Source of the DNA: Myxococcota bacterium | GTDB lineage: Bacteria > Myxococcota_A > UBA796 > UBA9615 > JAKLKC01 | Length of the DNA stretch: 59,623 bases | Assembly (NCBI GenBank): GCA_023150875.1 | Contig: JAKLKC010000042.1 | Location: 1 to 59,623 of the forward strand | Direction of reading: 5' to 3' | Shown: piece after piece, positions 5,846 through 44,755 of the stretch | How positions within the stretch are numbered: the stretch's first letter is position 1 | Layout: each line of letters starts with the position of its first letter | Translations under genes and position numbers: made by a program | Notes under the pieces: generated by a model | What the model was told of the DNA's origin: nothing | Database searches by the model: none | Seen by the model: the letters and a program-made list of their open reading frames with translations, nothing else

Positions 5846-6148
5846 ATGCGAACCGCCCTCCTCGCCGTCCCGTTCCTCGCCGCGCCGCTGCTGTTCTCGG
5901 GGTGCGGCAACGCCTGCCAGCAGCTCTGCGACGTCGTCGCCGACGTGTACGAGTCCTGCGGGAAGAGCTACGGCGACTCGGAGATCGGCGACTGCCGCTC
6001 CCGGTACGCCTCCACGGACGCGGACATGCTGGCCACCTGCGAGTACGGGATCGACGTGGACCGGGACGGGCGGACGAACTTCGAGAAGGACGCGACCTGC
6101 GAGACCATCGAGGGCTGGGAGGCGGCGTTCGCCGGATCGGGGGAGTAG
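5846..6148 (+). CDS. Small Cys-rich lipoprotein, paralogue of the preceding gene
   Basis: 100 residues from ATG 5846. The signal peptide ends in the lipobox LLFSGC and the mature protein starts CGNACQQLCDVVADVY. It shares the NACxxLCD opening and the later pattern (ESCG, GDCRSRY, ATCEYG, ATCETIEGW) with its upstream neighbour. DVDRDGRTNF resembles an EF-hand or dockerin-like Asp loop, but a single loop is weak evidence. The two lipoprotein genes are 17 bases apart and probably co-transcribed. The convergent histidine kinase gene ends 19 bases downstream. Function unknown. Envelope location is inferred from the lipobox only. Confidence 0.75.
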   Translation: MRTALLAVPFLAAPLLFSGCGNACQQLCDVVADVYESCGKSYGDSEIGDCRSRYASTDADMLATCEYGIDVDRDGRTNFEKDATCETIEGWEAAFAGSGE

Positions 6149-24093: not shown

Positions 24094-24525
24094 ATGCACA
24101 TCGACCCCATCCTGGTCCTCCTGCAGATGGTCCCCTTCCTGCTGGCGGTCTTCGGCCTCTGGTTCATCATCTTCAAGCCGACGCTGAAGCTGCTGGAAGC
24201 GCGGGAGGCGCGCATCGTCGGCGCCCGCAAGGAGGCCGAGGCCCTCTCCGCCCGCCTGGACGCCAAGGTCGCCGAGTTCGAGGATCGCCTGCAGGAGGCC
24301 AACGCCGCCGCCGCAGCCGAGCGCACCCGGCTCCGGCGGGAGACGGCGGCGCGGGAGGACGAGGTCCTCGGCCAGGCCCGGGCCGAGGCCGAGCGCCTCG
24401 CCCAGGAGGCCCGGGCCCACATCCAGGCCGAGGCCGCCGCGGGGCGGGCCCTGCTGCGGCGTGAGGCCGACGGCCTCGCCCGGGACATCGCCGGCGCGGT
24501 GCTGGGACGGGAGGTGATTCAGTGA
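24094..24525 (+). CDS. atpF': F0F1 ATP synthase subunit b'
   Basis: 143 residues from ATG 24094. One membrane helix (residues 6-27, ILVLLQMVPFLLAVFGLWFIIFKP) is followed by a long charged coiled coil to the end. This is the b/b' peripheral stalk layout, without signal peptide, and a b-type gene follows, so this one is b'. With b and delta it holds the alpha3beta3 head still against the rotor. It is the first gene of a seven-gene operon and overlaps atpF by GTGA. Genes for subunits a and c are not upstream, where an NHL lipoprotein lies instead. They must be elsewhere, as in many delta-proteobacteria-type genomes. Confidence 0.9.
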   Translation: MHIDPILVLLQMVPFLLAVFGLWFIIFKPTLKLLEAREARIVGARKEAEALSARLDAKVAEFEDRLQEANAAAAAERTRLRRETAAREDEVLGQARAEAERLAQEARAHIQAEAAAGRALLRREADGLARDIAGAVLGREVIQ

Positions 24526-25208
24526 CGCGCCCGCGCTCCACCCTGGCGAGGCGGGGGGCGTCCCTCGCCGCCGCCGGCCTCCTGGCCCTCGCCGCCGCGC
24601 CCGCCCTCGCCGAGGAGCCCGGGCACGGGGCCGCCGCCACGGACCACGGTGCGGCCGCCGGCCACGGCGGCGGGCACGGCCTCTCGGGCGAGGAACTCTC
24701 CCACCGCCTGGGCGAGGTCGGCATCCACGCCGTGAACTTCGCGCTGCTGATCGGCCTGCTGGTCTGGGCGGGGCGGCGACCGGTGGGGGACTACCTGCGG
24801 AACCGCGCCGCGGCGGTGCGGGGCGAGCTCCAGGACTCCGCCCGGGTCCGGGACGACGCCAGGGCGAAGTACGCCGAGTACGACCGCCGCCTGGCCGCCT
24901 TCGACCAGGAGATCAAGGGGCTCGTGGACCGGGTCCGGGCCGAGTGCCAGGTCGAGCACGACCAGGCGATGGTCCAGGCCCGCGCCATGGCCGACGGGCT
25001 GGTCCAGACGACGCGACGGGCCGTCGAGGAGGAGGCCCGCCGGGCCCACTACGAGCTGCGCCGGGAGGCCGTGGACCTCGCCGTCCGCCTCGCCGAGGGC
25101 GTGCTGCGGGAGGGGGTCACCGCCGACGACCAGCGGCGCCTCGCCGACACCTACCTGAGCGCCGTGGGCGGCACCGTCGTCGTCCGCAGCGAGGTGGCCG
25201 AGTCATGA
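24522..25208 (+). CDS. atpF: F0F1 ATP synthase subunit b with apparent signal peptide and His-rich insert
   Basis: 228 residues from GTG 24522, inside the stop of the b' gene. Before the normal membrane helix (about 66-82, AVNFALLIGLLVWAG) stands an unusual N-terminus: a signal-peptide-like stretch (ASLAAAGLLALAAAPALAEE, residues 14-33) and a Gly/Ala/His spacer with seven His (34-58). The rest is the charged coiled coil of the peripheral stalk. If the signal is cleaved, the new N-terminus would lie outside the membrane, which fits the normal orientation of subunit b. The usual length is about 155-170 residues, so the extension accounts for the excess. The assignment is secure from the operon position. 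The role of the extension is unknown. Confidence 0.88.
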   Translation: MTRPRSTLARRGASLAAAGLLALAAAPALAEEPGHGAAATDHGAAAGHGGGHGLSGEELSHRLGEVGIHAVNFALLIGLLVWAGRRPVGDYLRNRAAAVRGELQDSARVRDDARAKYAEYDRRLAAFDQEIKGLVDRVRAECQVEHDQAMVQARAMADGLVQTTRRAVEEEARRAHYELRREAVDLAVRLAEGVLREGVTADDQRRLADTYLSAVGGTVVVRSEVAES

Positions 25209-25762
25209 TCGAGGGTTCCATCGCCCGCCGCTACGCCCAGGCCGTGCTCGACCTCGCTCGGGACGAGGGGATCGCCGAGAGGGTCGGCTCGGAGCTGGAC
25301 GACTTCGTGGCCACCCTGGAGCGGGTGCCGGTGATCCGGGAGGTCATCGTCCACCCCGGCTTCGGCAAGGACGAGCGCAAGGCGCTGCTCCACGCCGTCC
25401 TGGAGCGCTCCGGCTACGCCCGGATCACCCGCGACTTCCTGCTGCTGCTGGTCGACAAGAGCCGCATCGGTGCCTATGGGGAGATCGCCCGCGCCTACGC
25501 CCGGGGCCTGGACGAGGCGATGGGCAGGGTCCACGCCACCGTCCGCTCGGCGGGGCCCCTGGACGCGGGGACCCTCGCGCGCCTGCGGCAGCACCTGGAG
25601 CGGGTCACCGGCAAGACGGTGGTCCTGGAGTCCCAGGTGGACCCCTCCCTCATCGGCGGCCTCGTCACCCAGGTCGGCAGCCTCGTCTTCGACGGTTCGA
25701 TTCGCACCCAGCTCGAGGCGATGCGCTCGCGGCTCCTCCGGGACGAGCCGGCGATCGCCTGA
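25205..25762 (+). CDS. atpH: F0F1 ATP synthase subunit delta
   Basis: 185 residues from ATG 25205, overlapping the atpF stop (ATGA). The N-terminal six-helix domain begins IARRYAQAVLDLARDEG, which binds the alpha N-termini at the top of F1. The C-terminal signature VTGKTVVLESQVDPSLIGGLV is typical of delta/OSCP. It connects the b/b' stalk to the head. Length and position in the operon are normal. 78 bases separate it from atpA, the first gap in the otherwise overlapping start of the operon. Confidence 0.95.
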   Translation: MIEGSIARRYAQAVLDLARDEGIAERVGSELDDFVATLERVPVIREVIVHPGFGKDERKALLHAVLERSGYARITRDFLLLLVDKSRIGAYGEIARAYARGLDEAMGRVHATVRSAGPLDAGTLARLRQHLERVTGKTVVLESQVDPSLIGGLVTQVGSLVFDGSIRTQLEAMRSRLLRDEPAIA

Positions 25763-25840
25763 CGGAAACCCCAGACATCCTGGACCCTTGCACACCCGGA
25801 TGACGCGCGGGCCGCGCGACCGGGGGCGGAAAGAGACGAC

Positions 25841-27349
25841 ATGGACATCCGCGCCGAGGAGATCAGCCAGATCCTCAAGCAGCAGATCCGCGACTACCAG
25901 ACGCGGGTCCAGGTTGCCGAGACCGGCAGCGTGCTCGCGGTCGGCGACGGGATCGCCCGCGTCTACGGCCTGGAGAGCGCCGTCGCCGGCGAGCTCCTGG
26001 AGTTCCCCGGCGGCGTCGCCGGGATGGTGCTGAACCTCGAGGAGGACAACGTCGGCGTCGCCCTCATGGGGGACGACCGCCACATCAAGGAGGGCGACCT
26101 CGTCCGCCGCACCGGCCGCATCGTCGAGATCCCCGTCGGCAAGGCGCTCATGGGCCGGGTGGTGAACCCCCTCGGGATCCCCGTGGACGGCGGCGGCCCC
26201 ATCGAGGGCGCCCAGAGCCGGCGCATCGAGATCAAGGCGCCCGGGATCGTCGGCCGGAAGTCGGTCCACGAGCCGATGCAGACCGGCCTCAAGGCCATCG
26301 ACGCCATGGTGCCCATCGGCCGGGGCCAGCGGGAGCTGATCATCGGCGACCGGCAGACCGGCAAGACCGCCATCGCCATCGACGCGATCATCAACCAGCG
26401 CGGCCAGAACATGTACTGCATCTACGTCGCCATCGGCCAGAAGCAGTCGACGGTCGCCCAGGTGGTGGAGCGCCTGCGCCGGGCGGGGGCGATGGAGTAC
26501 ACCTGCGTCGTCATCGCCCCGGCCTCGAGCCCGGCCCCCCTCCAGTTCATCGCCCCCTACTCCGGCGCCACCATCGGCGAGTACTTCCGGGACAACGGGA
26601 TGCACGCCCTGTGCATCTACGACGACCTCTCCAAGCAGGCGGTGGCCTATCGCCAGCTCTCGCTGCTGCTCCGCCGCCCGCCGGGCCGCGAGGCCTTCCC
26701 CGGCGACGTCTTCTACCTCCACAGCCGCCTGCTGGAGCGCGCCGCCAAGATGAGCGACGCCATGGGGGCGGGCTCCATGACGGCCCTCCCCGTCATCGAG
26801 ACCCAGGCCGGCGACGTGTCGGCCTACATCCCGACCAACGTGATCTCCATCACGGACGGCCAGATCTTCCTCGACACCGACCTCTTCTTCTCCGGGATCC
26901 GGCCGGCGATCAACGTCGGCCTGTCGGTGAGCCGGGTCGGGGGCTCCGCCCAGGTCAAGGCGATGAAGAAGGTGGCGGGCACCCTGCGCCTCACCCTGGC
27001 CCAGTACCGCGAGCTGGCCGCCTTCGCCCAGTTCGGCTCCGACCTGGACAAGGCGACCCAGTCCCAGCTCAACCGCGGCGCCCGGCTGGTGGAGCTGCTC
27101 AAGCAGCCCCAGTACAGCCCCCTGCCGGTGGAGAAGCAGGTGATCGTGCTCTACGCCGGCACCCGGGGCTACCTCGACTCCTTCCCGGTCTCGGCGGTCC
27201 GCAAGTTCGAGGGCGAGCTCTTCGCCTTCATGGACGCCCGCTTCCCGGACGTGGCGGAGGGGATCCGGAAGACCGGGGACCTCAAGCCCGAGATCGAGGA
27301 GCGGCTCAAGGCCGCCCTGGCGGAGTTCACCCGGACCTTCTCCGCCTGA
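25841..27349 (+). CDS. atpA: F0F1 ATP synthase subunit alpha
   Basis: 502 residues from ATG 25841. It is full length with the non-catalytic nucleotide site: Walker A GDRQTGKT near residue 170, [14 protein letters not shown], the beta-strand aspartate in [16 protein letters not shown], and [21 protein letters not shown] near 365. [23 protein letters not shown] contains the arginine-finger region environment. It alternates with beta subunits in the F1 head to make ATP from the proton (or Na+) gradient. Every landmark is conserved and nothing is truncated. Confidence 0.98.
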
Positions 27350-27377
27350 TCGGCCTCAACGGCCCGAGGACCCAGCG

Positions 27378-29752
<2,375 letters not shown>

Positions 29753-29854
29753 TCGGGGCGCACCCCGGCGGCCGGCCGATAGAGTCCGTTCCCAATCCGG
29801 GGCGGCGGGGGCACCCGCCCCGCCCCCCGGGCCGCACCCCGAGGCGAGTGGCCC

Positions 29855-30280
29855 ATGGCCGACCAGAGTCTCCAGCTCGACGTCATCACCCCCGAGCGCC
29901 AGGTGTTCAGCGGCGAGGTGTCCGCCGTGATCGCCCCCGGCGCCCGCGGACAGTTCGGGGTGCTCGGCGGGCACGTCCGCTACGTCACCGAGGTCCACCC
30001 GGGCCCCCTGACCTTCGATCACGGGGGCCGGACCCACCGCTACGTCGTGGGGGGCGGCTTCGCCCAGGTGGGGGACGGACGGGTGATGGTCCTGGCCGAC
30101 CGGTGCGAGGAGGCGTCCACCATCGACGTCGAGCAGGCCCGGCGCGACATGGCCGCCGCCGAGAAGACGATGCTGGAGAGCCTCCCCACCGACCGCGCCT
30201 ACCTCGACGCCCAGGCCGCCCAGCGCCTTGCCATCGCCCGGATCCAGGCGGCGACCGGCGCGGCCGCGTCCCCCCACTGA
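29855..30280 (+). CDS. atpC: F0F1 ATP synthase subunit epsilon
   Basis: 141 residues from ATG 29855. The N-terminal beta-sandwich (LQLDVITPERQVFSGEVSAV, GQFGVLGGHVRYVTEV, GGFAQVGDGRVMVLADR) contacts the c ring. The C-terminal two-helix region (IDVEQARRDMAAAEK onward) can inhibit F1 hydrolysis in related enzymes. GGHVRYVTEV stands where most epsilons have GHAPLVTAL, a modest variation. It is the last gene of the operon, 102 bases after atpD. Confidence 0.95.
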   Translation: MADQSLQLDVITPERQVFSGEVSAVIAPGARGQFGVLGGHVRYVTEVHPGPLTFDHGGRTHRYVVGGGFAQVGDGRVMVLADRCEEASTIDVEQARRDMAAAEKTMLESLPTDRAYLDAQAAQRLAIARIQAATGAAASPH

Positions 30281-31655: not shown

Positions 31656-34055
31656 TCAGGTCGCTTGTGGCTCCCCGATCCGGGGTTCCGCCTCCACCCT
31701 CGCCGCATCCGGGGACCCCGCCCGCGCGGGGCCGGCGTCGCGCCTGGCCGCCTCCACCGCCCGGAGCACCGCCTCGGGGGTGCAGGGGTAGGACAGCTCC
31801 ACCTCGCGCCCCCGCGCCCCGAAGGCGCCCACGGCGTGGCGTAGGGCGGTGACGGCGGAGATCGCCAGCATCAGGGGGGGCTCGCCCACGGCCTTGCTGC
31901 CGTGGATGGTGCCGTCGTGGGGTGACGAGGGCAGCAGGTCCACCCGGAAGTCCTCGGGGACGTCCCCGATGGCGGGGACCTTGTACGTCGACGGCGAGTG
32001 GGTCAGCAGGTGGCCGGACTCGTCGAAGACCAGCTCCTCGGTGGTCAGCCAGCCGAGCCCCTGCACGAAGGCCCCTTCCACCTGCCCCCGGTCCACGGTC
32101 GGGGTCAGGGACGCCCCCACGTCGTGGAGCACGTCCACCCGGAGCACCCGGTGCTCCCCCGTCAGCCCCGACACCTCCACCTCGGTCACCGCGGCCCCGT
32201 AGGCGAAGTAGAAGAACGGCCGGCCTCGGCCCACGGAGGGATCGTAGTGGATCCCGGGGGTCCGGTAGTAGCCCGTGGCGGACAGGGAGATCCGCGCCAG
32301 CCAGCAGGCGCTCGCCACGTCGGCGAAGGGGGCCGAGAGGCCGGTCCCGGGATGGGACACCCGCCCCTCCGAGAAGACCAGCGCCTCCCCCTCGCCCGCG
32401 GGGAGGCCCAGGAGGGTCGCCGCCACCGGGCGCATGCGCTCCCGCACCGCCGCGCACGCCTCCAGGACGGCCTGCCCGTTGAGGTCCGAGCCGCTGGACG
32501 CCGCCGTCGCCGAGGTGTTGGGCACCTTCTCGGTGGAGGTGGCCATGACCCGCACCGCCTCGACGGGGACCCCCAGCTCGTGGGCGCACACCGCCCGCAT
32601 CTTGGTGTGCAGCCCCTGGCCCATCTCGACCCCGCCGTGGTTGAGCTGCACCGATCCGTCGGCGTACACCAGCACCAGCGCCCCGGCCTGGTTCAGGAAG
32701 GCGGTGGTGAACGAGATCCCGAACTTCACCGCCTGGAGGCCGATCCCCCGCTTCGTCCAGCGGGAGGAGGCGTTGGCCACCTCGATCGACTCGCGCCGCC
32801 GGCGGTAGTCCGAGGAAGCCAGCAGGCGCTCGATCATCCGTCCGGCGCGGAAGTCCCCCACCGGCTGGTCGTAGGGGGTGCGGTCCCGCGGGGCTGGCCC
32901 GTAGAGGTTCAGGCGCCGCACGTCGGCGGGGTCCAGGCCCAGCCGCTCCGCCGCCCGGTTCAGGACCTCCTCCACCACCAGGACCCCCTGGGGGCCCCCG
33001 AAGCCACGGAACGCGGTGTTGGAGGCGCGGTTCGTCCGCACCACCCGGCCCTCGAAGCGCAGGGCGGGCAGGTGGTAGCAGTTGTCCAGGTGGAAGAGGC
33101 AGCGGTCCAGGATCGCCCGGGACAGGTCCGCGCTCCAACCCCCGTCCGCGAAGACCCGCGCCACCAGGGCCAGCAGGCGTCCCTCCCCGTCGAAGCCCGC
33201 CTCCCAGTCAGTGCGGAACGGGTGGCGGCGCCCGGTCTGGCGCATGTCGCGGTCCCGGTCCAACCACACCTTCACCGGCTGCCCCGTCCGCCAGGCCCCC
33301 AGGGAGGCCAGGGCCGCGAAGGGCGCCGCCTGGGTCTCCTTGCCGCCGAACCCGCCCCCGAGGCGCGGGACCTCCACGACCACGCGGTGGCGGGGGATCC
33401 CCAGGACCTCGGCCACCTTCGCCTGGACCTCAGAGGGGTGCTGGGTGGAGGAGAAGACCCGCAGCCCTCCCCCCTCCTCCGGCACCGCCAGGGCGCACTG
33501 GGTCTCCAGGTAGAAGTGGTCCTGCCCGCCGCTCTCCACCCGCCCCGAGAGGCGCAGCGGGGCCCCGGCGAGGGCGGCGTCCGGATCCCCCCGCCGTAGC
33601 ACGTGGGGCTCGCAGAGGAACGCGCCGGCGGCGATGGCCTCGGAGATCCCCAGGATGGGGGGCAGCTCCTGGTACTGCACCGCCACCGCCTCGGCGCCGA
33701 GCCGGGCCGCCCGGGGGGACTCTGCCAGCACCAGGGCCACCGCCTGCCCCTCGGTGTGGACCTCCCCCTCCGCCAGCAGGGGCTCGTCGTGGACCACCGC
33801 CCCCACCTGGTTCAGCCCGGGGACGTCCCCGGCGAGCAGCACCGCCACCACCCCGGGCACCGCCCGGGCTCCCTCCGTACCGATACCCAGGATCCGCGCC
33901 CGGGCGTGGGGGGACGTGACGGCGTGGCCGTGGAGGGTGCCCCGGGGCTCGGGGAGGTCGTCCACGTACAGGGCCTCCCCGGTAACGTGCCGGGCGGCGC
34001 TCTCGTGGGGGGCGAGGCGCCCGATGGGGGAGCCGGACGGGGTGGGGGCGCTCAC
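31656..34055 (-). CDS. xdhB: Molybdenum hydroxylase large subunit, xanthine dehydrogenase type
   Basis: 799 residues from GTG 34055, which overlaps the small-subunit stop by four bases (GTGA). That overlap fixes the start. The Mo cofactor domain is complete: RLGGGFGGKETQ, NTAFRGFGGPQG with the conserved Arg, GGVEMGQGLHTKM, SSGSDLNGQAV, and the catalytic Glu at about 725 in GSKAVGEPPLM. It hydroxylates a purine or similar heterocycle using water as oxygen donor and passes electrons to the FeS/FAD subunit. It is the bacterial XdhB layout. No XdhC-type maturation gene lies nearby. Whether the substrate is xanthine cannot be proven from the sequence. Confidence 0.93.
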   Translation of the reverse strand: MSAPTPSGSPIGRLAPHESAARHVTGEALYVDDLPEPRGTLHGHAVTSPHARARILGIGTEGARAVPGVVAVLLAGDVPGLNQVGAVVHDEPLLAEGEVHTEGQAVALVLAESPRAARLGAEAVAVQYQELPPILGISEAIAAGAFLCEPHVLRRGDPDAALAGAPLRLSGRVESGGQDHFYLETQCALAVPEEGGGLRVFSSTQHPSEVQAKVAEVLGIPRHRVVVEVPRLGGGFGGKETQAAPFAALASLGAWRTGQPVKVWLDRDRDMRQTGRRHPFRTDWEAGFDGEGRLLALVARVFADGGWSADLSRAILDRCLFHLDNCYHLPALRFEGRVVRTNRASNTAFRGFGGPQGVLVVEEVLNRAAERLGLDPADVRRLNLYGPAPRDRTPYDQPVGDFRAGRMIERLLASSDYRRRRESIEVANASSRWTKRGIGLQAVKFGISFTTAFLNQAGALVLVYADGSVQLNHGGVEMGQGLHTKMRAVCAHELGVPVEAVRVMATSTEKVPNTSATAASSGSDLNGQAVLEACAAVRERMRPVAATLLGLPAGEGEALVFSEGRVSHPGTGLSAPFADVASACWLARISLSATGYYRTPGIHYDPSVGRGRPFFYFAYGAAVTEVEVSGLTGEHRVLRVDVLHDVGASLTPTVDRGQVEGAFVQGLGWLTTEELVFDESGHLLTHSPSTYKVPAIGDVPEDFRVDLLPSSPHDGTIHGSKAVGEPPLMLAISAVTALRHAVGAFGARGREVELSYPCTPEAVLRAVEAARRDAGPARAGSPDAARVEAEPRIGEPQAT

Positions 34056-35509
34056 CGGGGATCCCCGGCATGCACCGTGGAGGTGGGACGGGGGTGCAGG
34101 CCCCCCTCCGGGGACGACACCTCCGCCCAGAAGCCCCGGAGCAGGTTCCCGGCGACGGTCCGGCGATACCACGCCGAGCCCCGGTGGTCGGAGATGGGCT
34201 GGAAGTCCTCGTCCAGGAAGGGGATCGCCGCCTCGATGGCCTCCTCGCCGAAGGGGCGGCCGAGGAGGGCGGCCTCGGTACGGGACGCCCGGCGGGGGAT
34301 GGCCGCCATGCCTCCGAAGGCCAGGCGGGCCTCGGCGATCCGCCCCTCCCCGTCCAGGCGCACCGCGCAGCCGGCGCAGACGGCGGAGATGTCCAGCTCG
34401 CGCCGCTTGGACACCTTGAACGCGCTCACCCGCCACCCCGGCCCGGGGTGGAGCCAGTCCACCGCCTCCATCACCTCGCCGGGGGCCAGGGCGGTCCGGC
34501 GGTAGCCCAGGAAGAAGTCCTGGAGGGGCAGGCGCCGCCTGCCGTGGCGCGAGGCGAGGGTGACGTGGGAGCCCAGGGCGATGAGCACCGGGGGCAGGTC
34601 GCCGATGGGGGAGGCGTTGCACAGGTTCCCCCCCACCGTCGCCCGGTTCCTGATCTGCCGCGACGCGAAGAAGCGCAGCGTCTTGTCCAGGGCGGGAAGG
34701 TGGCCGCGCACCGCGTCGTGGAGGTCCGAGAGGGGGGTGGCCGCCCCGATCCGGAACCCTGTGGCGTCCCGCTCCACCCCCCGGAGCGCCGGGATCCCCT
34801 CCAGGGACACCAGGCAGGGGGGCTCGCGGAAGCGCCGGGTGACCTCCAGGGACAGGTCGGTGCCGCCGCACACCAGGCGGGCGTCGGCGTGGCGGTCCAG
34901 CACGTCCCACAGTTCGGGGAGGGAGGTCGGCACGAAGGCCCTCTGGCCCCCGTGGGCGTATGCGAGGGCCATGGACTCGGGGGCGGGCTCCCGCAGGGCG
35001 GCGGCGAAGCGGTCGCCCGGGCGGAGGCCGGCGACCCGCCGGGCGGCGTCCCGGATGGGGCGGTAGCCGGTGCAGCGGCAGAGGTTCCCGCACATCTGGT
35101 CGTCGAGCTGCCAGGGCTCGGAGACGTCCTCGCGGTGGCAGGCCTCCAGCATCGACATGGCCACGCCCGGGGTACAGAACCCGCACTGGGAGCCGAGATC
35201 GGCGACCAGCGCCTCCTGCACGGGGTGGAGGGGCCGCCCCTCCTCCCGGAGCGCCTCCACCGTCCACACGCTCCGGCCCTGCACCATGGGCAGCAGCACC
35301 AGGCAGGAGTTCACCGCCCGCAGCGCCGGCCCGCCGGGGGCGTGGGGGTCCAGGATCGCCACGGTGCACGCCCCGCAGTCCCCCTCCGCGCACCCCTCCT
35401 TGGTGCCGGTCAGGCCGCGGGAGCGGACGTACTGGAGCAGGGTCGTGGTCGGGGGGACGGAGTCCTCCTCGATCCACGCGTCGTTCAGCCGGAACCGAAG
35501 GACCTCCAC
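34052..35509 (-). CDS. xdhA: Molybdenum hydroxylase small subunit with 2Fe-2S and FAD domains, xanthine dehydrogenase type
   Basis: 485 residues from GTG 35509 (AGGAG 8 bases upstream). Further upstream codons have no suitable start and no family similarity. Two [2Fe-2S] clusters are supported by Cys40, Cys45, Cys48 and Cys69 (GCAEGDCGACTV), and Cys109, Cys112, Cys144 and Cys146 (QCGFCTPG, CRCTGYRP). Residues about 190-370 form the FAD domain (VCGGTDLSLEV, TVGGNLCNASPIGDLPP) and the rest is the CO-dehydrogenase flavoprotein C-terminal domain. Electrons from the Mo site pass through the FeS clusters to FAD and then NAD+. It is the first gene of a two-gene operon, divergent from the kinase gene. 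Confidence 0.93.
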   Translation of the reverse strand: MEVLRFRLNDAWIEEDSVPPTTTLLQYVRSRGLTGTKEGCAEGDCGACTVAILDPHAPGGPALRAVNSCLVLLPMVQGRSVWTVEALREEGRPLHPVQEALVADLGSQCGFCTPGVAMSMLEACHREDVSEPWQLDDQMCGNLCRCTGYRPIRDAARRVAGLRPGDRFAAALREPAPESMALAYAHGGQRAFVPTSLPELWDVLDRHADARLVCGGTDLSLEVTRRFREPPCLVSLEGIPALRGVERDATGFRIGAATPLSDLHDAVRGHLPALDKTLRFFASRQIRNRATVGGNLCNASPIGDLPPVLIALGSHVTLASRHGRRRLPLQDFFLGYRRTALAPGEVMEAVDWLHPGPGWRVSAFKVSKRRELDISAVCAGCAVRLDGEGRIAEARLAFGGMAAIPRRASRTEAALLGRPFGEEAIEAAIPFLDEDFQPISDHRGSAWYRRTVAGNLLRGFWAEVSSPEGGLHPRPTSTVHAGDPR

Positions 35510-35716: not shown

Positions 35717-37855
35717 GTGGCGTTGGATCCGCAGGGCCAAGGCGAACCCCGCTCGAACGGGTCCGAGCCGCACGAGGCTCCCGGAGCCCCGCGCGAGCAG
35801 CGCTTCGCGCCCCAGCCGTTCGGCAAGTACCACCTCGTGGATCGCATCGCCGTCGGGGGCATGGCGGAGATCTTCCTCGCCAAGACGTTCAGCCACGGGG
35901 GGTTCGAGAAGCGGCTGGTCATCAAGAGGATCCTCTCGTCGCTCACGGACAACGAGGAGTTCGTGAGCATGTTCGTCGACGAGGCGAAGCTCTCGGTCCT
36001 CCTCACCCACCCGAACGTCGTGCAGGTCTTCGACTTCGGGCGCATCGGCGACCATTACTTCATCGCCATGGAGGCGGTGGACGGGAAGGACCTCAAGTCG
36101 GTCCTGCGCCGGCTGGGGGAGCGCGGGGAGACCCTGGACCCCCTCTTCGCCGCGTGGATCTGCCAGCAGGCGGCGAGGGGGCTCGACTACGCCCACAAGA
36201 AGAAGGACCCCGAGGGGAACGACCTCTCCATCGTGCACCGGGACGTCTCGCCCTCGAACGTGCTCCTGAGCTACGAGGGCGCGGTCAAGATCGCGGACTT
36301 CGGGATCGCCAAGGCCCAGGGCACGACCTTCGACACCAAGGAAGGGGTGCTCAAGGGCAAGTTCGAGTACATGAGCCCCGAGCAGGCCTGGGGGCGTCCC
36401 ATCGACCGCCGCTCCGACGTGTTCTCCCTCGGGACCGTGCTCTGGGAGATGCTCACGGGCCACCGCCTGTTCAAGGGCGCCAGCGACATGGACACCCTGG
36501 AGCGCATCCGCTCCGCCGCGGTCCGCCCGCCCCGGGAGCTGCGCCCCGACCTGCCCGAGGCGCTGGAGGCCGCCGTCCTGAGGGCCCTCTCGCCGGACCC
36601 CGACGACCGCTACCCCGACGCGGCGGCCTTCGGGCACGACCTGAGGGAGTGCCTCTCTCCCCTCGCCCCCGACGAGGTCGCCGAGGAGTTCGCCCCCTGG
36701 CTGCTCGCGCTCTTCCTCGACGACGTCCAGGACGAGAAGGCGCGGGTCGAGCGCAACAGCCGCGAGGCCCTGCTCCAGCTCGACGTGGACGACGACCTGG
36801 AGCTGGAGGAGACCCCCCTCCTGGACCCGGTGCCCCTGTCCGCGGGGGAGATCGAGAGCGCGGAGCGGGGCCGCGAGGTCACACCACCCCCGACGCCCCT
36901 GCCCCGCGGGGCGGAGTCCCCCGGGGACGCTTCCCCTGTGCTCCCCTTCGGCGGGGAGGGCGCGGGCCCCGCCCGGGCCCACTCCCCCCGCGGCCAACCC
37001 GTCGCGGACGCCCCGCGTCCCGGTGCCTACCCTCACCCCCCGCACCCCCCGCCGCGGCCGGTCACCCCCGCGGAGCCCGCGGCCAGGGGTCTCCTCCGCC
37101 CCGTCGCCGCCGGGTTCCTGGTGGTCGCCCTGGCCCTGCTGGCGGCGTGGTACCTGCTGCGGGAGCTCCCCGGAGACGAGGGCGGCGAGGGGCCGGAATC
37201 GGTCGCCTCCGCGCTCCCCGTCCCGGCGGGGGAGGCCGGACCTGCCGCCGAGCCCCAGCCCGAGGTCTCCCCAGAGCCCCCTCCGGCCCCGCCGGAGGTC
37301 GCGCCCCCGCCGGCACCTTCGCCTTCCCCGTCCGCGACCCCTCCCCGGCCCGCCGCCGCCGCCCGCTCCCAGCCCCCCAGGGGAGGGGAGACCGCGACGC
37401 CGCCCGGGGCCGGGGACTCCGCGGGGGTGATGATCCTGGAGTCCCGCCCCTCGGGGGCCGAGGTCAGGGTCAACGGTCGCACCGTGGGTCGCACCCCGTA
37501 CCAGTTCACCTCCGGCAAGGCCAGCGAGGTCTACGCCATCGACCTCGCCCTGGACGGCTTCGAGGGCGAGGCGTTCAGCCAGGACTTCCCCAAGAGCGGC
37601 ACCCTGAGGGTGTCCCGGACCCTCTCCCCGCGGACGGCCGCCGCCCTCGGGAACCTGAGCGTCCGGGTCAACGGCGGGTTCGCCGACCTCTACATCGACG
37701 GCGCGCCCAAGGGGAAGGCGCCGAGACAGCTCCAGCTCCCCCCCGGCACGTACCAGGTCCGCCTGGTCAACGCCGCGGCGGGCTTCGACCGCACGGTGGC
37801 GGTGACCGTGAAGTCCGGGCAGACGGCTTCCGTGTCCGAGACCCTGGGCGAGTGA
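35717..37855 (+). CDS. Membrane-anchored Ser/Thr protein kinase with two PEGA-like domains
   Basis: 712 residues from GTG 35717. TTG 35723 is equally possible because AGAGG sits 6 bases before it. The kinase domain (36-310) has the Gly loop IAVGGMAEIF, Lys70, Glu89, the catalytic HRD (174-176) in HRDVSPSN and DFGIAK. The SPSN form after HRDV is common in myxobacterial kinases. A Pro/Glu-rich juxtamembrane region leads to one membrane helix (about 462-482). A second Pro-rich spacer follows, then a PEGA domain (ESRPSGAEVRVNGRTVGRTP) and a second PEGA-like unit (ADLYIDGAPKGKAPRQL). PEGA domains lie outside the membrane and may sense the envelope. It overlaps the Lon-like gene by GTGA, so the two are co-translated. 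Confidence 0.92.
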   Translation: MALDPQGQGEPRSNGSEPHEAPGAPREQRFAPQPFGKYHLVDRIAVGGMAEIFLAKTFSHGGFEKRLVIKRILSSLTDNEEFVSMFVDEAKLSVLLTHPNVVQVFDFGRIGDHYFIAMEAVDGKDLKSVLRRLGERGETLDPLFAAWICQQAARGLDYAHKKKDPEGNDLSIVHRDVSPSNVLLSYEGAVKIADFGIAKAQGTTFDTKEGVLKGKFEYMSPEQAWGRPIDRRSDVFSLGTVLWEMLTGHRLFKGASDMDTLERIRSAAVRPPRELRPDLPEALEAAVLRALSPDPDDRYPDAAAFGHDLRECLSPLAPDEVAEEFAPWLLALFLDDVQDEKARVERNSREALLQLDVDDDLELEETPLLDPVPLSAGEIESAERGREVTPPPTPLPRGAESPGDASPVLPFGGEGAGPARAHSPRGQPVADAPRPGAYPHPPHPPPRPVTPAEPAARGLLRPVAAGFLVVALALLAAWYLLRELPGDEGGEGPESVASALPVPAGEAGPAAEPQPEVSPEPPPAPPEVAPPPAPSPSPSATPPRPAAAARSQPPRGGETATPPGAGDSAGVMILESRPSGAEVRVNGRTVGRTPYQFTSGKASEVYAIDLALDGFEGEAFSQDFPKSGTLRVSRTLSPRTAAALGNLSVRVNGGFADLYIDGAPKGKAPRQLQLPPGTYQVRLVNAAAGFDRTVAVTVKSGQTASVSETLGE

Positions 37856-39756
37856 CCGTCCCCGAGACCCTCCTCGCCTCCCTCCGCCTCCCGGCCGAGC
37901 GCCTGCGCTGGCGCTGCCCCGAGGACGAGCCCCCGCCCCTCCCCGCCGGTCTGCCGGTCGGCCAGGAGGCGCTGGTGGAGGGCCTGGAGGCCGTCGTGCT
38001 CGCCCCACGCCCCGGCGTCCACGGGTTCATCGCCGGGACGCCCGGATCGGGGAGGCGGAGCGCTGCGCGGGCGCTGCTGGAGGGCGCCGTCCTCCCCGCC
38101 TGGCCCCGCCGGGACGTCGTCCTGTTGCCCCGGACCCTGAGGCCGCCTGAGGCGGGGTGGCTCGTCCTCCCCCCGGGTGAGGGGAAGGCGGTGGTCGGGG
38201 CGTGGACCGGGGATCCCCGGCTCGCGCCCCGGCTGGTCTTCGCCGCCCGGGAGGGGCCGCCCCCGGTGGTGGAGCTGCCCCTGCCGAGCTGGGAGAGGCT
38301 GCTGGGAGGGGTGGCGGGGGAGGCGCGGGAAGGGGGAGATCCCTTCGCGGAGCTGCGGGTGGGGGCGCTGCTGCGGGCGGACGGGGGATACCTCCTGCTG
38401 GACGCCGACGCCGCGGCGTCGGAGCCGGGCCTCTGGCGGGAGCTGTGCCGGGCCCTCAGGACGGGGTTCCTGGAGCCTCGCCCTCCCCCGGACGCCCGGG
38501 CCCGGAGCGGGCCCCCCGTGGACCCCCTCCCCCTGAACTGCACCGTCATCGCCTTCGGGCAGCCCGCGTTGCTGAACGAGGTCCGGGCGAGGGAGTCCGG
38601 CCGCGCCGCCTTCCCCGTCCGGGTGGAGGCCCGACCCGACCTGCCCCTGGACGGGGCCGCCATCGCCGCGGTCTTCCACGCCGCGGGGCGGATCGCCGCC
38701 CGGGAGGGCCTCCGCCCCCTGCTGCCCGGCGCCGCGGGCCCCCTGGTGGAGAGGCTGGTGTCCCAGGCCAGCGGGCCGGGGCGGATGAGCGCCCGGCTGG
38801 GCTCGCTGCGGGAGCCCCTTCGGGAGGCCGACGCCGCCGCCCGCCGCCGGGGGGCGTCCGCCATCGGCCCCGGCGACGCGAGGGACGGGATCGAGGCCCT
38901 CCGGCGCCGCTCCCGGGCCCGCTGGGACCGGCTCCTGGACCGGATCGAGAAGGGGACCCTGCGCCTGGACGTGAGGGGCGAGAAGGTCGGGGTCGTCAAC
39001 GCCCTGCTGGTGTTCGGCGGCGAGGAGGAGAGCTACGGCGCTCCGTCCCGACTCACGGCGGCGACGGCGGTGGGGCGGGAGGGGGTGATCAACCTGGAGA
39101 GGGAGGCCCGCCTGTCGGGCAGCACCTTCGACAAGGGGCTGCTGATCCTCGTGGGGCTCCTGCGCTCCCGCTTCGCCGGCGCCTCCCCCCTGTCCCTGGC
39201 GGCCTCCCTCTGCCTGGAGCAGCACTACGGCCGCATCGACGGGGACAGCGCGGGCCTCGCCGAGTGGATCGCCCTCGTCTCCGAGCTGTCCTCGATCCCG
39301 GTCCGCCAGGACCTCGCGGTGACCGGTTCCCTGAACCAGAAGGGCGAGGTCCAGTCCGTCGGGCGGGTCGAAGCGAAGGTCGAGGGCTTCTTCGCCGCCT
39401 GCGCGCGCCTGGGACTAACGGGGAGCCAGGGGGTCCTGATCCCCCGGGCCAACGCCGAGGGGCTCATGCTCTCCGAGGAGGTGGTGGAGGCCTGCGCCCT
39501 GGAGCGGTTCCACCTGTACGCCGTGGACCACGTCGACGAGGCGGTGAGCCTGGCGCTGGGCTGCCCCGCGGGGACCCGCGACTCCCGGGGACGCTACCCC
39601 AGGGGGACGGTGAACGGCGCCGTCGCCGCCCGCCTCTCCCGGATGGCGTCCCGGCTCTACCCGCAAAAGAGAGCGGCGAAGAAGGCCGCCACCCGCCCCG
39701 CCGCCCCGTCCGCCCCGGTCCCCGCGGCCCCCAAGCGGGAGCCGGTCCAGGGCTGA
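37852..39756 (+). CDS. Lon-like (S16) ATP-dependent protease with degenerate P-loop
   Basis: 634 residues from GTG 37852, inside the kinase stop codon (GTGA). The C-terminal half is an S16 protease domain: catalytic Ser466 in DGDSAG and Lys509 in RVEAKVEGFF. They are 43 residues apart, the same spacing as Ser679 and Lys722 in E. coli Lon. SLNQKGEVQSVGRV precedes the Lys. The N-terminal half is AAA-like: GTPGSGRRS (62-70) has Arg68 where the Walker A Lys should be, and GGYLLLDADA supplies the Walker B Asp. GxGR P-loops occur in Lon-related AAA_32 proteins, so this may be a family trait. It lacks the Lon N-terminal substrate domain and is shorter than the 750-800 residues usual for that family. 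The C-terminal Lys/Ala/Pro tail is likely disordered. Confidence 0.85.
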   Translation: MTVPETLLASLRLPAERLRWRCPEDEPPPLPAGLPVGQEALVEGLEAVVLAPRPGVHGFIAGTPGSGRRSAARALLEGAVLPAWPRRDVVLLPRTLRPPEAGWLVLPPGEGKAVVGAWTGDPRLAPRLVFAAREGPPPVVELPLPSWERLLGGVAGEAREGGDPFAELRVGALLRADGGYLLLDADAAASEPGLWRELCRALRTGFLEPRPPPDARARSGPPVDPLPLNCTVIAFGQPALLNEVRARESGRAAFPVRVEARPDLPLDGAAIAAVFHAAGRIAAREGLRPLLPGAAGPLVERLVSQASGPGRMSARLGSLREPLREADAAARRRGASAIGPGDARDGIEALRRRSRARWDRLLDRIEKGTLRLDVRGEKVGVVNALLVFGGEEESYGAPSRLTAATAVGREGVINLEREARLSGSTFDKGLLILVGLLRSRFAGASPLSLAASLCLEQHYGRIDGDSAGLAEWIALVSELSSIPVRQDLAVTGSLNQKGEVQSVGRVEAKVEGFFAACARLGLTGSQGVLIPRANAEGLMLSEEVVEACALERFHLYAVDHVDEAVSLALGCPAGTRDSRGRYPRGTVNGAVAARLSRMASRLYPQKRAAKKAATRPAAPSAPVPAAPKREPVQG

Positions 39757-39811
39757 CCGGAGCGGGGGGCGGGATTTCGGCGCGACCCGGGCTCCCGCCC
39801 TTGCCCCGTGC

Positions 39812-39817
39812 TACACT
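39812..39817 (+). promoter_or_regulatory. Putative -10 box TACACT of the second kinase gene
   Basis: TACACT ends 11 bases before ATG 39829. There is no Shine-Dalgarno in between, so the leader would be about 4 bases or none. Confidence 0.3.
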
Positions 39818-39828
39818 CCACGCGACCC

Positions 39829-41274
39829 ATGTACCTCGCTCCCACCCAGCTCCCGTACCATCTCGGACGCTACGAGCTCCAGGAGGAGATCGGGCGCGGC
39901 GCCTACGCATCGGTCTACCGGGCCCGCCTCTCCGGGCCCATGGGCTTCCAGAAGAAGGTCGCCCTGAAGCTGGCGCGCTCCCCCCTCACCGAGGGCCAGC
40001 AGGACGAGGACGAGGGGAGGATCAAGGCCCTGGTGAACGAGGCCCGGATCGGCGGTCGCCTCCAGCACCCCAACATCGTCGAGATCTACGAGTTCGGGCG
40101 GATCGAGGGCTTCTACTTCATCGCCATGGAGTTCGTCGACGGGCTCACCATCGGCCAGGCCCTCGACGTGCTCAAGACCCGGGGGAGGGCCATCCCCCCC
40201 GGCCTCGCCATCGAGCTGATCTCCCAGACGTGCGAGGGGCTCGCCTACGCCCACGACCTGACCGACGAGGCGGGGGAGCACCACCAGGTGGTGCACCGCG
40301 ACCTCAAGCCCGCCAACCTGATGGTCGCCCGCACCGGCCTGCTGAAGGTGATGGACTTCGGGATCGCCAAGTCCGCGTTCTCGCTCTTCCAGACCGCCGA
40401 GGGCATGACCAAGGGCACGCCCATGTACATGTCCCCGGAGCAGGTCTACGGCCGCCCGGTGACGCCCGCGTCGGACATCTTCGCCGTGGGCTCCATCCTC
40501 TTCGAGATGGTCGTGGGCGAGCCCCTCTTCGTCGGCGACAGCGTCGTCGAGATCATCGAGAAGGTGGCGGAGCAGGACGCCGGGCCGCGCCTGGACTCCC
40601 ACCGGGACCGCCTCGGCCCCATGCTGGCTGTCCTGCGCCGCTGCCTGAAGAAGAAGCCCAACCAGCGCTACCCCACCACCTACGACCTCCTCGCCGACAT
40701 CGAGAGGCTGCGGGAGGCATTCCCCCTCACCCAGTCCGCCTCCTCGCTGGTCCGGGAGGTCGAGTCCATCCGCGGGGGCAAGCCCCGCCCGGCCCCCAGC
40801 GCGCCCCGCCGGCGGGAGCCCCCTCCGGCCCCCGAGCCGCGCCCGTTCCGACGGGCTCCCATCCCCCAGTTCCTGCCCGAGGAGGCCTCCCTGGAGCTGG
40901 AGTCGACGCCGGGCTCGGCCTCGACGACCATCGAGGTCCTGGAAGTGGATCCGGACGTGTCCGCGAGGGGATCGGCCCCCGCACCGGTCCCCGGCCCGCC
41001 CCCGCCGAGCCGGCCCCTCACCTCCGCGCCCGCGGCCCCTCCCCCGGCGGCGGCCGGCGGCCGGACGTCGGACCGCCGGCGCGGGCGCCTGGGGAGCTGG
41101 TCGGTCGTCCTGCCCGCCATGGGCCCAGACTTCGCCGCCCGCCCCGCGATGCCGAGCGCCCGGTCGTCGCCCCCCTCCGACCTGGACCTGCCCACGCTGA
41201 GCCTGGAGCTGGCGGCCCTGCCTCCCCTCAAGCCCGGCTCCGAGTCCGGGAGCAGCGGCGGCGCTCCGGGCTGA
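39829..41274 (+). CDS. Ser/Thr protein kinase with Pro-rich C-terminal tail
   Basis: 481 residues from ATG 39829. GTG 39808 in frame is an alternative but overlaps the -10-like TACACT. The kinase core is complete: IGRGAYASVY (21-30), Lys47 in VALKL, Glu71, HRDLKPAN with Asp158, DFG at 176-178, and TKGTPMYMSPEQ. The remaining 180 residues are Pro/Ala/Ser-rich with short acidic motifs (ASLELEST, LPTLSLEL) and no clear membrane helix, so the kinase is probably cytosolic, unlike its neighbour. It starts 72 bases after the Lon-like gene on the same strand. A GC hairpin separates it from the convergent PEGA protein gene. Confidence 0.92.
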   Translation: MYLAPTQLPYHLGRYELQEEIGRGAYASVYRARLSGPMGFQKKVALKLARSPLTEGQQDEDEGRIKALVNEARIGGRLQHPNIVEIYEFGRIEGFYFIAMEFVDGLTIGQALDVLKTRGRAIPPGLAIELISQTCEGLAYAHDLTDEAGEHHQVVHRDLKPANLMVARTGLLKVMDFGIAKSAFSLFQTAEGMTKGTPMYMSPEQVYGRPVTPASDIFAVGSILFEMVVGEPLFVGDSVVEIIEKVAEQDAGPRLDSHRDRLGPMLAVLRRCLKKKPNQRYPTTYDLLADIERLREAFPLTQSASSLVREVESIRGGKPRPAPSAPRRREPPPAPEPRPFRRAPIPQFLPEEASLELESTPGSASTTIEVLEVDPDVSARGSAPAPVPGPPPPSRPLTSAPAAPPPAAAGGRTSDRRRGRLGSWSVVLPAMGPDFAARPAMPSARSSPPSDLDLPTLSLELAALPPLKPGSESGSSGGAPG

Positions 41275-41304: not shown

Positions 41305-42687
41305 TCAGCCCGACGACCCGAAGCGGATCGTGACCACGCCGGTGTCCGAGGGCGGGGTGGTGGCCTGGGACTGGTTCACGCCCACCGCCACGCCGACTGC
41401 GGCGGCGGCGGCGGCGCCCCCGAGGATCGCCCAGAAGAGGGGGCGGCGGGCCACCGGGACCCGGACCTGTACCGGCGTCGTCCCCGGGACCTGGGTGCCG
41501 GTCCCGAGGGGACGGGTCCAGCCCTGGCCCAGCAGGATCGAGTTCAGGACCGGGTTCCTCCCCAGGAAGACGGGGGCGACGGACGCCGCCGCCGCCTCCT
41601 CGGCGATGCCGCCGTCCGAGCTCACGGTGGCGACCACCCGCTCCACCAGCCGCCGCACGACCTCGTCGGGGCCCTTCTGCGTGAGCAGCACGTCGGCGAC
41701 CTGGGCGCGGGCGAACCGGCCGTCGCGCTTCCCGTAGGCCTGCAGGCGGAAGTTCCCCGAGGTGTCGAAGGCCCCCAGCACCACGATGTCGGTGCCCGCG
41801 GCGCGGGCGAGCTGCTCGTAGAGCGCCATGGTGCGCCCGGAGCTCTTCCCCTCGATGGCCTCCGCCTCCTCCAGGGGGCGGAGCCCCGCGTCGCGCAACG
41901 CCCCCCGGGCGTCGAAGGTCTGGCCCGCCTCCAGGTCCACGACCCACGCGGCCCGGCCTCCCGCGCCGTTGGCCACCACGTAGTGCCGCCCGGGCCGGAC
42001 CTCGATGCGGGCCGGCGCGGTCCCCGCCGGTCGCCCGTCCACGAGGACCTGGGCGCCCGCGGCGTCCCGGCCGACGTCGACGACCGCCGGCGCCCCCGCC
42101 GCCAAGGCCGCCTTCACCCGGTCGAACCGACCGATCTCCTCCTCGGGGAAGCGCACCGGGTCCAAGGTCCGGGCCGGGTCGACGGCCGCGGCCAGCGCGA
42201 ACCAGCGGTCGGCGGCGGCGGCGTCCCCGGTCCAGCTCGCGCACAGCCCGCTATAGAGGTAGGCGTCCACCAGCAGGGAGGGATCCCGCAGGTACTCCGC
42301 CCCGCGGTCCAGGAGCTGCCGTGCCCGGGCGAAGCTCTCCTCGGCCTCGTCGATGCGCGCCGCCTCGAACAGCTTCTGCCCACCGATGACCTCCTTTCGG
42401 GCGGCGTCGAGGAAGGTCTCCGTGAGCACGAACTCCCGCCGGGCGAAGACGGCGGCGCCGGTCTGGTCCAGGTCGCGCAGCTCGATGCCCTCCTGGTCCT
42501 CCAGGGAGAGGGCCACCCAGCGGCCCACGTCGAGGACCCGCGCCTCGGGCATGTCGGGGGTGCCGTGGACCCCGAGGAACGAGACGGTGGGGACCCCCTC
42601 CCCACCCCAAGCCGGCGCGGCGTGGAGGGCCAGCAGCAGGACCAGGAGCAGGGCGACGGGGCGCGAGTTGACCGGGCGGTGAGGCAT
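41305..42687 (-). CDS. Exported PEGA-domain protein with C-terminal membrane helix
   Basis: 460 residues from ATG 42687. Signal peptide (VALLLVLLLALHAAPAWGG). Residues about 95-200 look like TPR-type helices (IDEAEESFARARQLLDRGAEYL, GDAAAADRWFALAAAVDPARTL). A PEGA-like domain follows near 215-265 (AGAQVLVDGRPAGTAPARIEV). Residues about 310-390 contain GTDIVVLGAFDTSG and VRRLVERVVATVSSD. One hydrophobic helix near the end (ILGGAAAAAAVGVAVGV) may anchor it. Proteins of this layout are common in Myxococcota next to kinases and are of unknown function. It converges on the kinase genes, whose first member also has PEGA domains. 250 bases upstream separate it from the divergent TPR gene, and I see no clear element there. 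Confidence 0.78.
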   Translation of the reverse strand: MPHRPVNSRPVALLLVLLLALHAAPAWGGEGVPTVSFLGVHGTPDMPEARVLDVGRWVALSLEDQEGIELRDLDQTGAAVFARREFVLTETFLDAARKEVIGGQKLFEAARIDEAEESFARARQLLDRGAEYLRDPSLLVDAYLYSGLCASWTGDAAAADRWFALAAAVDPARTLDPVRFPEEEIGRFDRVKAALAAGAPAVVDVGRDAAGAQVLVDGRPAGTAPARIEVRPGRHYVVANGAGGRAAWVVDLEAGQTFDARGALRDAGLRPLEEAEAIEGKSSGRTMALYEQLARAAGTDIVVLGAFDTSGNFRLQAYGKRDGRFARAQVADVLLTQKGPDEVVRRLVERVVATVSSDGGIAEEAAAASVAPVFLGRNPVLNSILLGQGWTRPLGTGTQVPGTTPVQVRVPVARRPLFWAILGGAAAAAAVGVAVGVNQSQATTPPSDTGVVTIRFGSSG

Positions 42688-42937: not shown

Positions 42938-44755
42938 GTGAGCGTCATGTCCAGACCGAGCCCCCTCGCCGGCGCCCTGCTGCTCGCGGCCCTGTCCCTC
43001 GGCCTGGGCCTCCCCGCCGGGGCGGAGCCCGTGCCCGAGGCGGCCCGCACCGCCTGGGTCCAAGCGCGGGAGGCGGCGCGGACCCGGGACACCCGCAAGG
43101 CCCTGGCCGCGGTCGAGAAGGCGATCTCCGCCGCTCCCGGCTTCATCCCCGCCCACCGCATGCGGATCGACCTGCTGACCGGCGACGCCCGCGGGGCGGA
43201 GGCGGTGCGCCTCTACCGGGCGAAGGTGGACGCCGAGCCCCGATCCGCCGCGGCCCACTACCTCTACGGCGTGGCCGCGAACCGGCCCGATGTCGCCGAG
43301 GCCGAGTTCCGCGCCGCCATCGAGCTGGAGCCCGGCTTCGCGTGGGCCTGGTTCGGGATCGGCGCCATCGAGTCCGCCCGCGGGCGCCACGAGGCCGCCG
43401 AGAAGGCGTACCGCGAGGCGGTCCGCCTGGACCCGGACATCCCCGAAGCGTGGGGGAAGCTGGCGGAGGCGCGCCTCGCCCGGGGGGACGAGGAGGGAGC
43501 GATCGAGGCCTTCCGGGAGCAGATCCGGCGCGCCCCCGACGACTGGCACGGGCGGCTCAACCTGGGGGGGCTGTTCGCCCTGAAGGGCCAGATGGAGGAG
43601 GCCCGCCCCCTGCTGGCCCGGGCGGTGGAGCAAGCCCCCGACGAGCCCGTGCCCCACGTCAACCTCGGCTTCCTGCTGCTCCGCGCGGGGGACGCCTCCG
43701 GGGCCGCGCGCCACCTCGACCGCGCCGTCGCCCTGGACCCCCGCAACCTCGTGGCCCGGGACTACCGCGCCTTCGCCCGCGCCGTGGCGGGGGGGCAGGC
43801 CCCCATCGGGGCCCTCGGCGCCTTCGAGTCCGCGGTCCGGGCCGCGGCGTCGGATCCCGCGTCGGCGGCCCCCGCCTTTGCCTCCCTCGCCGAGCAGGCC
43901 CCCCGCTTCTGGCTCGCCCACGTCCGCCACGGTGTCGCCCTCGCCGCGGCCTCCCAGGGGGACGAGGCGGCGGCGGCCCTGGGGCGCGCCCTGGCCCTGG
44001 CCCCCGAGGAGCCCGAGGTCCACTACGGACTCGGGATGGTGCGCCTCGCCGCGGGGGACGGCGCCGCCGCGGACGCCGCCTTCCGGCAGTCCTTGTCCCT
44101 GCGCCCGGACGACGCCGAGGCCCTCACCGGGAGGGCGCTGGTGGCGGCGTCCGCCGGCCGCCCCGCCGAGGGCGCGTCGTTCCTCGCCCGCGCGGTGGAG
44201 GTCGCTCCGTGGGAGGTGTCGCTGCGCTTCGACCTCGCCGCGGCCTGGGAGGCCGCCGGCGAGACCGAGGAGGCCGAGCGCGTGCTGGAGCGCATCGTGG
44301 AGCTGCAGCCGGGCTTCCTTCCGGGCCGGCTCCAGCTCGCCCGGGCCTACGCCGCCCACGACCGGTGGGACGACGCCCGCCGCCAGCTCCTGGAGGCGGT
44401 CTCCCTCGCCCCCGGCTCGGAGTCGGTGGCCTCCCAGCTCCGCGCCCTGGACGCCAGCCGGGCCGAGGCCAACGAGAAGCACGCCGGGAAGGTGCGGGCG
44501 TCGGTCCTGGTGACGGGGGACCGGGCACGGGCCGAGGCGGCCCTGAGCCGGCTGCGGGGAGGGGCGTCCTTCGCCGCCGTGGCCCGGGAGGTGAGCACGG
44601 GACCGACCGCCGCCCGGGGTGGCGACCTCGGGTGGATCGGCAAGGGCGAGATCCAGCCCCCCCTGGAGGTGGCCCTGTTCGGGCTGGATCCCGGACAGGT
44701 CAGCCCGGTGGTGGAGTCCGGAGGCAGCTACTTCGTGGTGAAGCGCACCCGTTAG
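42938..44755 (+). CDS. Exported TPR protein with C-terminal parvulin-type prolyl isomerase domain
   Basis: 605 residues from GTG 42938, chosen because GGAGGAG lies 4 bases before it. ATG 42947 is in frame but too far from the site. The signal peptide ends near LPAGA. About twelve TPR units fill residues 35-500 (YLYGVAANRPDVAEAEFRAAI, AWGKLAEARLARGDEEGAIE, PEVHYGLGMVRLAAGDGAAA). The last 85 residues are a short parvulin (PpiC) domain: LRGGASFAAVAREVS, GGDLGWIGKGEIQPPLEVAL, and GQVSPVVESGGSYFVVKRTR. The fusion suggests a periplasmic chaperone-like factor for folding or assembling secreted or outer-membrane proteins. The isomerase part is at the minimal end of the family's length, so activity is uncertain. 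Confidence 0.87.
   Translation: MSVMSRPSPLAGALLLAALSLGLGLPAGAEPVPEAARTAWVQAREAARTRDTRKALAAVEKAISAAPGFIPAHRMRIDLLTGDARGAEAVRLYRAKVDAEPRSAAAHYLYGVAANRPDVAEAEFRAAIELEPGFAWAWFGIGAIESARGRHEAAEKAYREAVRLDPDIPEAWGKLAEARLARGDEEGAIEAFREQIRRAPDDWHGRLNLGGLFALKGQMEEARPLLARAVEQAPDEPVPHVNLGFLLLRAGDASGAARHLDRAVALDPRNLVARDYRAFARAVAGGQAPIGALGAFESAVRAAASDPASAAPAFASLAEQAPRFWLAHVRHGVALAAASQGDEAAAALGRALALAPEEPEVHYGLGMVRLAAGDGAAADAAFRQSLSLRPDDAEALTGRALVAASAGRPAEGASFLARAVEVAPWEVSLRFDLAAAWEAAGETEEAERVLERIVELQPGFLPGRLQLARAYAAHDRWDDARRQLLEAVSLAPGSESVASQLRALDASRAEANEKHAGKVRASVLVTGDRARAEAALSRLRGGASFAAVAREVSTGPTAARGGDLGWIGKGEIQPPLEVALFGLDPGQVSPVVESGGSYFVVKRTR

Follow-up and report, generated by a model that had tools for sequence, protein, structure and literature searches.

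LonC proteins, exemplified by MtaLonC of Meiothermus taiwanensis and TTC1975 of Thermus, combine the Lon catalytic dyad with a non-canonical AAA module, and a subfamily-specific insertion, CX3GLX(G/E), separates their helix 3 from strand 9 (PMC3391209). MtaLonC has no ATPase activity, acts independently of ATP and degrades unfolded substrates only (PMC3391209). It reportedly degraded phosphorylated, not dephosphorylated, α-casein, and Escherichia coli Lon took all forms of α-casein (PMC3391209). The 2012 LonC study ends by stating that insight awaits the specific substrates.

Control of proteolysis by phosphorylation has been described in bacteria. In Xanthomonas citri, a phosphate on Ser654 of LonA acts as a switch for proteolysis (PMC5784255); the phosphosite lies on the protease, the ATPase is a working one and no kinase gene is coupled to it. 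In Bacillus subtilis, the kinase McsB marks substrates for the chambered protease ClpCP and thus provides the model for a phosphodegron interpretation, but McsB is a soluble arginine kinase of another fold, has no envelope sensor and delivers its substrates to an ATP-using AAA+ unfoldase (PMC8370763). Within the phylum of the DNA studied here, the Ser/Thr kinase cascade Pkn8-Pkn14 acts on MrpC of Myxococcus xanthus and phosphorylation lowers accumulation of the protein, the responsible protease being separate and not coupled to the kinases (PMC4320627). Membrane Ser/Thr kinases of the PASTA/PEGA kind, finally, join a cytoplasmic Hanks-type kinase through one transmembrane helix to an extracytoplasmic repeat sensor.

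The locus described here brings such a kinase and a Lon-like protease together. It lies in a stretch of 59,623 nucleotides (the window), a contig in the 6.92-Mb draft assembly of a Myxococcota bacterium. A first-pass annotation had noted a PEGA-bearing membrane kinase (K1) that shares a GTGA with a Lon-like gene, and open reading frame coordinates and domain matches confirm this (Table 1). It had also known of no described system of this form. For phosphorylation-controlled proteolysis as such this does not stand, given the X. citri and McsB-ClpCP systems. The open-access literature, outside which most subscription papers lie, yielded nothing on point for PEGA kinases in myxobacteria or for kinase-Lon operons, and a 2020 survey on the conflict systems of multicellular prokaryotes, though it brings up PEGA effectors and kinases, has no mention of Lon. 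The parts are thus of known kinds, and it is a truncated LonC-type protease with a private motif, its gene overlapping that of a PEGA kinase, that was not found described in that literature.

Table 1. Features of the kinase-Lon locus and of the envelope genes associated with it (window coordinates).
Feature	Position	Strand	Basis or details
K1, Hanks-type Ser/Thr kinase	35717..37855	+	ORF and domain search; GTG start 35717, TGA stop 37855, 712 aa
GTGA overlap, K1 stop TGA within Lon start GTG	37852..37855	+	sequence
Lon-like protease, LonC-type, degenerate AAA module	37852..39756	+	GTG start 37852, 634 aa
S16 proteolytic domain of Lon-like protease	38959..39561	+	catalytic Ser466 (39247-39249), Lys509 (39376-39378)
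RLYP motif and basic Lys/Ala/Pro tail of Lon-like protease	39652..39753	+	ortholog alignment
K2, soluble Ser/Thr kinase, lineage-specific passenger	39829..41274 (or GTG 39808)	+	domain match, synteny
Exported PEGA protein	41305..42687	-	signal peptide, PEGA-like segment, C-terminal hydrophobic helix; convergent with kinase operon
Exported TPR protein, C-terminal PPIC (parvulin) domain	42947..44755	+	conserved beside PEGA protein
Small Cys-rich putative lipoprotein	5846..6148	+	family immediately precedes K1 in much of class; here 30 kb away

The kinase domain of K1 spans residues 39-299 (about 35831-36613; Pkinase, E 2e-34), and its catalytic motifs HRD (HRDVSPSN) and DFG (ADFGIA) are intact and kept in the aligned orthologs. 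A single hydropathy peak at residues 463-481 (about 37103-37159) marks the transmembrane helix, and two PEGA stretches occupy the C-terminus (about 37430-37846; E 2e-15). This order of domains would place the kinase in the cytoplasm, the helix in the inner membrane and the PEGA domains in the periplasm. K1 is thus described as a membrane kinase that probably senses the cell envelope. The linker between kinase and helix is long, unstructured and rich in proline, and its sequence is poorly conserved among orthologs. K1 differs from the PASTA kinases in that PEGA replaces PASTA, and it is further set apart by its conserved neighbors, an exported PEGA protein, a TPR-parvulin and a Cys-rich lipoprotein. 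Orthologs from family f2 (L042, L039) carry three PEGA stretches, and it is the membrane-proximal one that seems to have been lost from the K1 of the window.

The Lon-like protein matches AAA_32, LonB_AAA-LID and Lon_C, and its best solved relative is Meiothermus LonC (E 8e-75). The Ser466/Lys509 dyad is invariant in the six orthologs described below and in all 36 aligned homologs. The LonC-specific insertion is present as CARLGLTG, starting at C517, and at the place that aligns with the second LonC insertion (hydrophobic-X2-Ala-hydrophobic, in helix 5) the protein has VVEAC, but some orthologs have VLRDV or similar sequences. An AlphaFold2 model built from 36 homologs (pLDDT 86.4; an earlier one from six sequences was poor, at pLDDT 58.6, and was left unused) has the LonC fold: the predicted structure matches MtaLonC with a Foldseek E of 2e-50, Z 36.9 and an rmsd of 3.2 over 559 residues at 34% identity. 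The AAA module is degenerate. Its P-loop reads GTPGSGRRS, with Arg replacing Lys, and is gone from the other five orthologs; Walker B is without its Glu. Most full-length relatives have about 302 residues from P-loop to Walker B. Here there are 119, a shortening of about 185 residues in which a helical insert has been cut, and two orthologs with a full N-terminus have 57-76. Since the full-length segment is missing, the protein is called here a truncated LonC-type variant. It shares with the LonC subfamily the fold, the dyad, the insertion and a non-canonical AAA module, and departs from it in the shorter segment, the altered or lost P-loop, the RLYP motif with its basic tail and the coupling to a kinase. 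By analogy with MtaLonC, it probably works without ATP. Another short LonC/LonB-like protein without a P-loop, the YcbZ-like L136 (Sodalis), has 140 residues in place of 302 in the same segment and sits on a long separate branch, which suggests an independent shortening.

With about 110 kinase candidates in the genome, a single kinase-Lon neighborhood means little. However, K1 is directly followed by the Lon gene in six of the seven genomes examined from this order, which belong to two families, and the two genes overlap in all six (by 4, 4, 4, 4, 11 and 11 bases); chance is therefore no explanation. The gene order is thus not unique to one genome, the point on which the first-pass annotation had proposed to have its reading checked. 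In one of the six (G005) a contig edge cuts K1, whose C-terminus is in place. The relatives that carry the pair come from metagenomes, and NCBI files them under Myxococcota or uncultured proteobacteria. The pair was found nowhere else. Their own profile gives the six coupled Lons 744-887 bits, and no other match in 71 genomes of the class or 379 of the phylum rises above 427 bits. They form one clade (SH-aLRT 92 with the AAA part included, 98.7 on the protease domain); because the tree has long branches, the clade is argued also from the RLYP motif, which all six share and which is absent from every other LonC-like protein collected, and from the shortened segment between P-loop and Walker B.

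Also considered as further members, and rejected, were the long LonC-like genes of the class (about 800 aa), which score 427 bits or less and have no RLYP. No kinase match accompanies them in the DNA examined, apart from two isolated cases outside the coupled clade, L069 (G044:C358) and L107 (Calditrichia), where a full-length LonC-like gene has an unrelated kinase no further than about 2 kb away. A record titled Klebsiella pneumoniae (L103, CAMAWH010000051.1) and a contig from the class of the window (G039:C51) are both 35,346 long and give the same LonC-like match; the former is probably a mislabelled metagenome record.

The older company of K1 is a different one. In the class search, K1 and the gene for the exported PEGA protein lie no more than 6 kb apart in 32 of 52 genomes, from all nine families, often with the TPR-parvulin gene nearby. 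In 17 genomes from six families outside the order, the two are convergent, with less than 0.9 kb separating their matches and Lon absent from the gap. This proximity across the class indicates that the ancestral company of K1 was envelope proteins, and the earlier suggestion that the kinase is associated with the envelope is supported by its membership in a gene set conserved across the class. On this synteny, the Lon gene was a later insertion of the present order, set between K1 and its PEGA neighbor, and one genome has since lost it. In that genome (G002), K1 is kept on a 75-kb contig and the next gene, 307 bases off, is homologous (48%) to the gene found beyond Lon in G003, which points to loss of Lon with retention of K1. 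The 307 bases contain no Lon remnant, and a search of G002 for a LonC-like gene gave no match above the general Lon background. Dependence runs one way: this Lon is found solely with K1, and K1 often without Lon. Such an asymmetry fits a Lon that serves the kinase as output or accessory; the loss in G002, together with the many K1 orthologs (most of those in the class) that have no Lon, indicates that the main job of K1 does not require it, which counts against the reading favored below.

Several other genes lie in or near this neighborhood. Members of the Cys-rich lipoprotein family (GC-N-x-CQ-x-LC, about 90-130 aa, no Pfam match) are found upstream of K1 orthologs, among them L139:3163-3441, L140:2864-3214 and L042:2925-3323. 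Radical SAM genes adjoin the Cys-rich gene and K1 (L139:2029-3114 and L042:1623-2702, both on the minus strand, and L170:4902-6569), with a SPASM domain in those of L139 and L170 and in one case an ABC transporter following; they could be involved in modification of the Cys-rich protein. In the window, ATP synthase genes occupy 24094-30280 on the plus strand, with Pfam confirming the epsilon subunit at 29855-30280. They end about 5 kb before the K1-Lon unit, and xanthine/aldehyde dehydrogenase-like genes occupy the opposite strand between them and K1 (31656-35476). A scan of the locus for promoters and terminators gave no informative signal at 75% GC.

Taken together, the locus would be a translationally coupled unit of two genes, presumably co-expressed, placed within an older envelope-sensing module. 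The PEGA domains of K1 would stand in the periplasm beside the exported partners (PEGA protein, TPR-parvulin, Cys-rich lipoprotein). The protease would form a hexameric chamber of the LonC type whose AAA module would be unable to hydrolyze ATP, and for that reason would not pull its substrates apart and would accept only unfolded or specially presented chains. K1 would then select the chains that enter the ring, by phosphorylating either the substrates, the route preferred here, or the protease itself, and the state of the envelope would be converted into the removal of particular cytoplasmic proteins. That K1 directs what the ring degrades, and so links envelope state to cytoplasmic protein removal, is the reading that we tentatively favor, at a confidence somewhat short of even.

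If K1 instead phosphorylated the protease itself and thereby switched its activity, the substrates would need no phosphate. The precedent is Ser654 of X. citri LonA (PMC5784255), and eight positions carry Ser/Thr in the protease domains of all six coupled Lons (422, 425, 445, 477, 480, 491, 523 and 586). Most of these, however, lie in the S16 core and are explained by fold or catalysis, and the exposed tail has no conserved site. The first-pass annotation had taken the Lys/Ala/Pro tail for a good phospho-site candidate, which the alignment of the six Lons does not support, since the Ser/Thr of the tail are not conserved and the basic residues are: no column past residue 586 is Ser/Thr in all six, the numbers of Ser/Thr after RLYP are 2, 4, 3, 6, 0 and 21, and those of Lys/Arg are 7, 6, 4, 10, 4 and 23, with 0-5 acidic residues. 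A putative binding role of the basic tail is, from these sequences, better supported than a phosphorylation site. We regard a switch on the protease itself as unlikely, if conceivable.

The direction of control may also be the reverse, with the protease acting in feedback to trim or turn over K1 or the partners close to it and the overlap setting the stoichiometry. The occurrence of this Lon only behind K1, while K1 is found also without it, is what is expected of an accessory regulator, and the unstructured, Pro-rich linker of K1 could be reached by a protease of unfolded substrates. That linker is nevertheless poorly conserved in sequence, and we give this feedback little credence. Similarly doubtful is the view that a housekeeping LonC-like protease was fixed behind K1 for convenience of expression, with no functional link. 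Four-base overlaps are common in bacterial operons and indicate co-expression, not interaction. The f2 genomes, moreover, lack any further LonC-like gene, and their housekeeping copy could thus be the short form. Against this, the genome of the window has a separate full-length LonC-like gene (C55), the short Lon has a remodelled structure and occurs at this position alone, and the coupling is kept in two families while K1 loci are otherwise rearranged.

The second kinase, K2, starts 72 bases past the Lon stop. Its only hydrophobic stretch falls inside the kinase fold, in agreement with the earlier description of a second, soluble kinase, but its membership in the unit does not stand. K2 is absent from the junction of Lon and PEGA gene in all relatives (L033, L039-L042), where these convergent genes overlap or leave at most 63 bases between their ends, and it was inserted there in the lineage of the window. 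A three-gene unit in which both kinases act on the protease, as first proposed, is thus highly improbable despite the shared strand and short gap in the window, given the junctions without K2 and its best matches, which are scattered paralogs at 38-49%.

If K1 does direct what the Lon ring degrades, the most specific form of this reading is a Ser/Thr phosphodegron, in which K1 as writer would mark cytoplasmic proteins on an envelope cue, and the LonC ring as reader, with its basic tail, would degrade them. The casein clue comes from one experiment with a distant homolog (34% identity), and removing the phosphate may there have acted through charge or solubility. Because the basis is this single experiment together with gene order, we consider the phosphodegron of only modest probability, and on balance unlikely. 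As K1 is of the Hanks type and the protease an S16 Lon, with neither McsB nor a Clp ATPase, the pair would be at most an analogue of McsB-ClpCP. If the proposal is true, writer and reader of a phosphodegron are encoded by overlapping genes. The pair makes possible a direct test of whether Ser/Thr phosphorylation can serve in bacteria as a degradation mark, as arginine phosphorylation does with McsB. The kinase whose gene overlaps that of the protease is a first candidate controller of a LonC, and the coupling could explain the finding that a LonC cut only phosphorylated casein. The locus also represents a case of an accessory protease grafted onto an old envelope-sensing kinase module.
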